Of a stretch of 44,504 bases of DNA, positions 32,330 through 35,004 are shown in pieces; position 1 is the stretch's first letter; each line of letters starts with the position of its first letter. The position numbers and the translations under genes were made by a program. The stretch covers positions 1 through 44,504 of the forward strand of contig JAITJS010000034.1 of assembly GCA_031278815.1 (NCBI GenBank). The letters are read 5' to 3'. The notes beneath the pieces were generated by a model. It was not told the DNA's origin, did not search any database, and saw nothing but the letters and a program-made list of their open reading frames with translations. This stretch comes from Treponema sp. (GTDB lineage Bacteria; Spirochaetota; Spirochaetia; Treponematales; Breznakiellaceae).

Positions 32330-32655
32330 ACTGACTTCTCCTTAGATAGGTACAAGTAGTATACATAAAAGCATGATAAAAGGCGAGAGGGAGGCCCTCA
32401 AGGGAAGTTCCGAGACCAGATCCTAGGGTACTCGAAGATCCCCCGTATAATTCGTGAACATGGGCGTTCCGTAGGTGCATACGGGGTTTCCGTGCTTGTA
32501 TACGGAGTAAGCGTATTCAAATAGGGGCTCCCGGTATGGCGGTACGGAAGCCCTGTACTATTGTCCCGATCACCTTGTATAGAAAAAGGGCGGCCCGGCC
32601 TGTAGGCCGGGCCGCCCTTGCCCGTGTACGGCTGATTGCCGCGGCGCTTACGCTG
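32330..32655. other. glyQS upstream region
   Basis: No gene visible. It has a possible minus-strand -10 box (TATACT) near 32355-32360 for glyQS, repeated GTATACGG-like words near 32470-32505, and at its right end the strong terminator of the lipoprotein gene. Confidence 0.4.
32582..32617 (-). terminator. Strong intrinsic terminator of the lipoprotein gene
   Basis: Perfect 13-pair GC stem (32588-32600 with 32605-32617), four-base loop, and on the minus strand five T after the stem. It lies 38 bases beyond the stop of the lipoprotein gene. Confidence 0.9.
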
Positions 32656-34707
32656 CTATCCCGTAACCTTGATGTAGTACACTACCGAGTTAAGATTAAC
32701 GTAAAGCGGCGTATTACCGGTATCTTCCCTTACAAAGTTGGCTGTAACAATCGTGAGCTTGTAGACTGTGTTGTTGGCTGTTAAAGCGGAGGGATCGATG
32801 AAGTACTCCTTGCTGGTCTCATCCTGCTTTATCACCCCTGTTATGGCCGTTGCGCCATCCGTGTTTTCCATTATCGAACTGACAGTGCGGCCCGACGTTA
32901 CAACAGCTTTTGCGAAATCCTCATTCTGAATGGTGATATTGCCGCCAGCTTTGGTCACTTCGATAGGGGCCGTAGCAGTGTCTGCGTCAGCCGCTGTACC
33001 AGTATCGCCCTGCTTCAGTTTGGGGCGCTCGATGATGCGGTTCACCGCAAAGGTAACTGACGTGTCCGGCGGTATCGTTGAGGGTATTTTAAGCGTATAG
33101 GAACCCTGGAAAGCTCCGGTAAAGAAGCCGTCCTTGATCGTAATGGCTATTTCGCCCTCTCCCTCCAGCGCAAGCTCATAAGTTGTTGCGCTGTCGATAT
33201 CCGCGACTCCTTTTTGAATAACGCCACCCTTCGAGGCAAAATCCTCCAACGCCGCCGTGCTCAAATTGCCGACGTGCAAAACGTTGCCCTCCTCAAGCTC
33301 AGCGCCCGTGGAGTTCAGTAACTTCTTGTCTGCGTCCGACACATAGAAGGCAGAGCCTTGTTCGATAGACGGGAGGCTGGCGCCGTCCGCAACCACGCCA
33401 ACACTTTCGATAATAATGTCCTTATAGCCCTTGGCAAAGATCACCAGCCGCATATTGCCCTCGGAGGACAAGCTGTCAAAGCGGGAAAAGCCGGAGCGCT
33501 TGATCGCGGCTTCAAGGTTGGTGTGCCCCCGGTGGGAGAACAGGTTCTGCAGCCAGACCAGGGGTTCCTTATGCCCCGTTTGCAGATCTTCGACATAACC
33601 GGCGTACAACTGTTCAAAGTAGGTGTTCCAAATGCCGGCGCTGTCCAGGCCCGACGGCAGGGGCGCAAAGTCCACGGCAATGACCTTGTCCGCCCAGTTG
33701 CCGCCGTAGGTTACGTTTACCGTTGCGCCGCCCGTGCCGCCAATGGCTTTTGGCCAGGAGGCGGCAACATCATTGAGGGCGTGGTCGTCCCGCCTGCCCC
33801 AGGAAGCGTCGGGTTGCAGGTATTTTACCTTGTAAACTGCGGTGGCCGCTTTCCATTGTGCAATGGCGTCCACCTGCGCCAGAACCTCCGTTGATGTCAC
33901 CACGGCCTTGCTGGCCTGCCTCAGGAGATCCGCATTGGCGTACAGATCAAAGTCCACCCCCACTTCCACGGCTTTGATGCCCGTAGCTTTGCCGTCCGCG
34001 TTAGTTTTATCTGTCGGCGTACCTTCGAAGGTAATGTTTCCTGTGGGGAAAAAATGCGCGGTGTCGCCGTAGGTGGCGCTGCTTATGGCGTCAACTTTGG
34101 CCTGTGAGTCCGCATCTGTCCAACTAGGGGCAGGGGTCCCGGAGCGTGTGCCGTCGGTGATAAACAGTTCTGGGGCTGCAACGGCGGCTGTTTTAGCAAA
34201 AGCTGTGGTTGAAGGGCGGATGGCGGTGATATTTGCCGTAACATCGTGAAAGAATTCACTGAACTTCATGGGTTTTTCGCCGTATAACACCTCCGGAGCC
34301 GCTATTCCGGCCTCGGTAAAGGTTACGGTCTCTTCTTCCAGAACGGATGTTTCCCCTTCTTTAACGGTTAAGCATAAGGCGGTACCCCCCCCCCCCCCCC
34401 CTGTGGGAGCCGCAATTTTTATCAGGCTTACCCTGCCGCCTTCGGACAGAACCGGCGTGGGGATTACGGCGGTTTGGCTAAGGGTGTAGGTTCCCTTCGT
34501 ATAATCCCCCGCCTCTACCGCCAAAACGACGTAATTGGTGTGTGATCCGCTCGTATGCGGATGCGCCACGCCATAGGATCCGACAAAGGTCAACGCCAAA
34601 TCCTCGTCCGTGACGGTATAATGCTCCTCGGTGATGTTTTCGCACCCCATCAACGCCACAAGGGTGCAGAAAACCCCGATGGCCCATTTCGGATGTTTTA
34701 AATCCAT
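32656..34707 (-). CDS. Large surface lipoprotein with an in-frame poly-G tract
   Basis: 683 residues from the ATG at 34707 (AAGGAG six bases upstream). The signal peptide ends in a lipobox LMGC (KWAIGVFCTLVALMGCENI), so it is a lipoprotein. Codons near 103-108 are a run of 17 G (six Gly), a classic slipped-strand site; the present length keeps the gene open. A segment in the second half (FDSLSSEGNMRLVIFAKGYK) weakly resembles bacterial surface beta-sandwich (DUF1533-type) repeats; no firm family is recognised. The gene is more GC-rich than the flanking AT-rich DNA, has its own promoter (34749-34776) and a very strong terminator, and looks like a self-contained accessory gene. Confidence 0.85.
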   Translation of the reverse strand: MDLKHPKWAIGVFCTLVALMGCENITEEHYTVTDEDLALTFVGSYGVAHPHTSGSHTNYVVLAVEAGDYTKGTYTLSQTAVIPTPVLSEGGRVSLIKIAAPTGGGGGGTALCLTVKEGETSVLEEETVTFTEAGIAAPEVLYGEKPMKFSEFFHDVTANITAIRPSTTAFAKTAAVAAPELFITDGTRSGTPAPSWTDADSQAKVDAISSATYGDTAHFFPTGNITFEGTPTDKTNADGKATGIKAVEVGVDFDLYANADLLRQASKAVVTSTEVLAQVDAIAQWKAATAVYKVKYLQPDASWGRRDDHALNDVAASWPKAIGGTGGATVNVTYGGNWADKVIAVDFAPLPSGLDSAGIWNTYFEQLYAGYVEDLQTGHKEPLVWLQNLFSHRGHTNLEAAIKRSGFSRFDSLSSEGNMRLVIFAKGYKDIIIESVGVVADGASLPSIEQGSAFYVSDADKKLLNSTGAELEEGNVLHVGNLSTAALEDFASKGGVIQKGVADIDSATTYELALEGEGEIAITIKDGFFTGAFQGSYTLKIPSTIPPDTSVTFAVNRIIERPKLKQGDTGTAADADTATAPIEVTKAGGNITIQNEDFAKAVVTSGRTVSSIMENTDGATAITGVIKQDETSKEYFIDPSALTANNTVYKLTIVTANFVREDTGNTPLYVNLNSVVYYIKVTG
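34385..34401. repeat. Homopolymer C17 (G17 on coding strand)
   Basis: Seventeen consecutive C on the plus strand inside the lipoprotein gene, read as five GGG codons plus GGT. A one-base change would shift the frame and truncate the protein soon after residue 108. Confidence 0.95.
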
Positions 34708-34748
34708 ACATGCCTCCTTACAGAACACCTAACGATATAAGAGTTATC

Positions 34749-34776
34749 ATACTATAACTATGTATGGAACATACAA
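34749..34776 (-). promoter_or_regulatory. Promoter of the lipoprotein gene
   Basis: Minus strand TTGTAT (34771-34776), 16-base spacer, TAGTAT (34749-34754), about 40 bases before the start codon. The -35 word TTGTAT recurs at two other envelope genes in this window. Confidence 0.5.
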
Positions 34777-35004
34777 CATATTTATACTATAGTCAATTAA
34801 ATTCGAGGATTTCTCCATGATAAACGCATAGAAATTCTTATTTTCTTATTGGATAAGGAATGAGGTAAAAAGGGGCTTTGTTGTGGAGTGTCATGATTGA
34901 CCAAAAGCCGACAAATCCTATGCCCAAAAAATGCCCCAAACTGCGAGAAAACCAAGAATTTCGGCCATATCCTTTAAGACCCCCTTCCGTTCCCTCGAAG
35001 CCTC
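34777..35004. other. AT-rich spacer
   Basis: I see no gene, strong hairpin or promoter here beyond the general AT-rich composition. Confidence 0.3.

Follow-up and report, generated by a model that had tools for sequence, protein, structure and literature searches.

An in-frame 17-guanine tract in a lipoprotein gene of a Breznakiellaceae spirochaete, a candidate phase-variation switch in a genome rich in poly-G runs

When a large reading frame contains 17 identical bases in a row, the question arises whether the gene is turned ON and OFF by changes in the length of the run, or whether the run has some other origin or role. The window, which is the whole stretch of 44,504 nucleotides analysed here (contig JAITJS010000034.1 of a Treponema sp.), carries a C17 at positions 34385-34401 of the plus strand, corresponding to a sense-strand G17 in a lipoprotein gene encoded on the minus strand. 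The initial annotation had placed an in-frame run of 17 G about 100 codons into this gene, and the homopolymer was found at codons 103-108 (Gly), within the N-terminal β-domain of the product. With 17 guanines the frame is open and encodes 683 residues, while in silico lengths of 15, 16, 18 and 19 yield products of 114, 112, 115 and 113 residues, respectively; the values for 16 and 18 agree with the earlier statement that one base more or less truncates the protein. The frame is thus kept at 17 or at multiples of three away from it (14, 20), and at off-frame lengths a stop codon is reached no more than about 10 codons further on. The tract is not a chance occurrence. Under a first-order Markov model, G/C runs of at least 17 are expected ~0.0004 times per window and ~0.02 times per 2.72-Mb genome. 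Runs of at least 11 gave 7 overlapping matches in the window against a mean of 0.32 and a maximum of 3 in dinucleotide shuffles, and the second-longest G/C run of the window has a length of 8.

The gene extends from 34707 to 32656 on the minus strand and has homologues in the spirochaete family and in clostridial metagenome-assembled genomes (MAGs). The mechanically called open reading frame (34728..32656, minus strand) opens at a GTG at 34728 and comprises 690 residues, but translation likely starts at the ATG at 34707, which lies 5 nt behind an AGGAGG ribosome binding site (34713-34718) that is conserved in relatives. The resulting N-terminus, MDLKHPKWAIGVFCTLVALMGC, displays a signal peptide with a lipobox-like LMGC, read by eye from the translation as VALMGC with its cysteine at Cys22 (34642-34707), in accordance with the earlier description of the product as a lipoprotein. 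Downstream of the gene, at 32586-32619 on the same strand, a strong intrinsic terminator consists of a 15-bp stem with 13 GC pairs followed by a T-rich stretch; its region folds at -42.5 kcal/mol (z -6), and the very strong terminator described before is therefore well founded. The promoter attributed to the gene fared less evenly. The promoter-like TTGACT-17-TATGTT at 34768-34796 (minus strand) belongs to a class of site whose count is not above chance (2 found, 1.8 expected), although TTGACT is kept upstream of the gene in the relatives G011 and G035.

The lipoprotein sequence found no match in Pfam, NCBIfam or PDB sequence searches. The AlphaFold model has low overall confidence (pLDDT of 54.9), with usable N- and C-terminal β-domains only, and places the tract between two predicted strands at a pLDDT below 50; this loop position is predicted to tolerate change. 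Structural comparison with the PDB, in which the middle region of the model is of low confidence, returned generic tandem Ig-like proteins only. A likeness to the penicillin-binding lipoprotein Tp47 (TpN47) of T. pallidum was not supported, there being no Pfam or PDB sequence match and no fold match other than to tandem Ig-like proteins. The Ig-like fold, together with homologues anchored by S-layer homology (SLH) domains, suggests that the lipoprotein is located at the cell surface.

The distribution of the gene is patchy, as it is present in six of 200 genomes of the family, the window's own included, and a profile search of 393 genomes drawn from the phylum revealed no homologue besides the window's own. 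Alignment of the lipoprotein with its homologues extends to either side of the run, and the protein is continuous across it. In G011, which belongs to another genus and encodes a 71% identical protein, a pure G19 occupies the same codon site (L090). There 19 is the in-frame length, since the flanking bases compensate, and 17, 18, 20 or 21 would truncate the product; the G011 gene has an additional frameshift near codon 511, so this copy may be broken or misassembled. G035 presents a G23 at the tract site, after which the contig degenerates, and in G041 one contig ends in the run (at least 12 G) while another begins in G-rich noise just beyond it. Contig breaks of this kind would be expected if the tract is hard or mixed. 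The congener G044 has no run at the site and reads VPPTETAF instead, and the homologue of G032 is without the tract-bearing part. A G17 was also observed in the leader of the G044 homologue (L095:753-769); as the adjoining sequence looks corrupted, this run, an artefact or a moved tract, was left uncounted. The tract thus appears to have been gained and lost, yet is pure in those closer homologues that have it. A single invariant length, named earlier as evidence against switching, is contradicted across species (G17, G19, at least 12, and 23). Replacement of the tract by mixed Gly codons, named likewise, is seen only in distant clostridial homologues, while one congener has no tract.

The tract has many counterparts elsewhere in the genome, which contains 56 runs of at least 9 G. 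Internal runs of 15-21 G, defined as separated from the nearest contig end by over 300 bases and tallied by run position, number 15, whereas ~0.6 runs of at least 14 would be expected; A/T runs of at least 14 are absent from the genome. Most of the long G runs are intergenic, and many lie upstream of envelope or sensor genes. The genes preceded by runs, when shorter runs and those close to contig ends are taken in, include those for lipoproteins (L032, L038, L043, L079), an outer-membrane efflux protein (L064), Cache sensors (L045, L054), an acyltransferase (L037) and a lysyltransferase-like protein (L067). Three long runs are coding, each in the N-terminal part of a predicted lipoprotein: the G17 at 34385-34401, a G17 in a BspA-LRR protein (L060) and a C15 in the protein of L072. 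The L060 gene (L060:1400-2674) encodes a BspA-type leucine-rich repeat lipoprotein in which the in-frame G17 directly follows the lipobox. Its homologue in G042 is 74% identical and has no G run of at least 8 in the stretch examined, which indicates that tracts turn over. Two pairs of intergenic loci with similar flanks in this genome were observed to differ in run length (19 and 16 in L037/L083; 21 and 18 in L057/L058). Runs of at least 14 number from 0 to 5 in genomes sampled from other families of the order and reach 117 in this family, counts that include contig-end noise. Closed single-contig relatives also hold internal runs of 15-61 G; two of them, G141 and G143, carry a G45 and a G61 inside their genomes (L221, L222). 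In the preferred reading, the candidate switch locus forms part of a poly-G phasome.

Could the run simply encode a flexible linker, selected for its glycines, the pure G run having no switching role? The tract does encode Gly in a loop, and more distant relatives keep a comparable loop. Three clostridial MAG contigs (L061-L063) encode proteins with 35-37% identity over residues 55-689, all of which possess SLH domains where the spirochaete protein has a lipobox, and at the tract site they display a Gly/Ser loop, GSSGG, specified by mixed Gly/Ser codons. From this comparison the Gly-rich loop appears to be old, and the pure run to be particular to the spirochaete lineage, within which it arose or was lost. 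The patchy spread of the gene, with clostridial relatives that carry S-layer anchors, suggests gene transfer within one habitat. Codon choice, in contrast, speaks against a plain linker. GGG accounts for 9 of the 58 Gly codons of the gene outside the tract, and matched Gly codons are identical in only 26 of 38 cases in G011 and 14 of 33 in G041; the purity of the tract is therefore not explained by codon habit, and the closer homologues keep pure GGG where other Gly codons diverge. Moreover, the other long runs are mostly intergenic, where no linker is encoded, and the congener G044 manages without Gly at the site. A plain poly-glycine linker is thus unlikely.

A slightly less probable explanation is that the run acts through DNA or RNA structure, with a sense-strand G-quadruplex that stalls polymerases or starts recombination, and not through the reading frame. 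G17 is in principle able to fold as a quadruplex, and pilE of Neisseria gonorrhoeae uses a quadruplex for recombination. The occurrence of long runs in both coding and intergenic places would also suit a structural role. However, the gene matches nothing but itself in the genome that carries it, which leaves no donor copy, and the frame is compensated between the G17 and G19 species, as suits a coding role.

The long runs share one property that switching leaves unexplained. In a comparison made post hoc, after the pattern was noticed, TA was found directly after 13 of 19 runs of at least 11, compared with 212 of 2070 runs of 4-8 (Fisher, 3e-9), and directly before 10 of 19, compared with 122 of 2070 (Fisher, 4e-8). 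These flanks, far beyond chance, occur at coding and intergenic long runs alike, and the TA on the right is over-represented in relatives (L098-L229) as well as at the loci of the genome itself (L031-L088). It is conceivable, though doubtful, that the G17 tract is part of a genome-wide poly-G phasome of termite-gut spirochaetes in which a single process, marking long runs as TA-G(n)-TA, gives rise to them or keeps them; the runs would then stem from a dedicated generator or maintainer of contingency tracts and not from scattered chance.

The same TA context, unlike random noise in its specificity, bears on whether the run is real. An artefact of sequencing or assembly (two-colour poly-G or k-mer collapse), with a real gene that differs at this point, might be suspected from the G69-93 runs at contig ends in the same assembly, from the many runs located at contig ends, from the noise adjoining some of them, and from a length of exactly 19 in 7 of 19 clean tracts of this genome. 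All tract lengths were read from consensus contigs, and the over-representation of 19 points to an influence of the assembler; the site may therefore have a true length other than 17. Nevertheless, an artefact at the G17 site is very unlikely. The sequences flanking the run encode one continuous homologous protein, a separate genome (G011) carries a run at the same codon, and long internal runs are also present in genomes of the family that are closed as a single contig. Long runs might all be spacers between -35 and -10 boxes: their right flanks resemble TATAAT, but the ORFs downstream are mostly on the C strand.

A translational ON/OFF phase-variation (contingency) switch is thus the preferred reading of the G17 tract, and we assign it a probability of roughly three in four. 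It draws on the tract and its frame logic, on the pure run of different length and compensated frame in another genus, and on the genome-wide excess of long runs. Strand slippage at the G17 during replication would alter the tract length. At 17 (or 14 or 20) the ribosome would translate the tract as a flexible poly-glycine loop, and the complete lipoprotein would be made and exported, while at other lengths an early stop would leave a stub of ~113 residues. We infer slippage, its rate and the change in expression from the sequence, and likewise any selection for switching. The tract, frame, lipoprotein, terminator and treponemal precedent on which the phase-variable switch was originally proposed are supported, and the differing lengths across species now add to them; the switching itself stays a prediction.

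Phase variation by simple repeats is known mainly from pathogens facing an immune system. The host spirochaete is probably of termite-gut origin, and a poly-G phasome in such probably abundant symbionts would show that surface switching pays in symbiosis, with phage, protists or niche change as the likely drivers. The type of switch is already known from T. pallidum and Neisseria. For this group no report was found: a literature search on phase variation in termite spirochaetes returned none, and a Breznakiellaceae paper made no mention of it.

The precedent in treponemes claimed by the initial annotation is borne out by T. pallidum, the nearest known case, where length variation was seen in 76% of 17 poly-G tracts (PMC7864442). 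There, as here, poly-G is found at genes for outer-membrane proteins or antigens (tprE/G/J, tprL, tp0126 and others), and most tracts vary in vivo (PMC7864442). The best-studied tracts of T. pallidum, however, sit in promoters and comprise ~7-11 G, whereas the present one lies in a reading frame and comprises 17; the gene here encodes a lipoprotein, and the host belongs to a different family of the order. A parallel in position is offered by HmbR and HpuAB of Neisseria, surface proteins whose expression is switched by poly-G within the coding sequence (PMC3786947), although proteins and organism are unrelated and switching proved in Neisseria is predicted here from sequence. The presence of many homopolymer runs per genome, at putative phase-variable genes, is shared with the phasomes of Campylobacter and Helicobacter (PMC6321876, PMC2823697). 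In contrast with those phasomes, the runs described here are mostly intergenic and flanked by TA, and their switching is again predicted.
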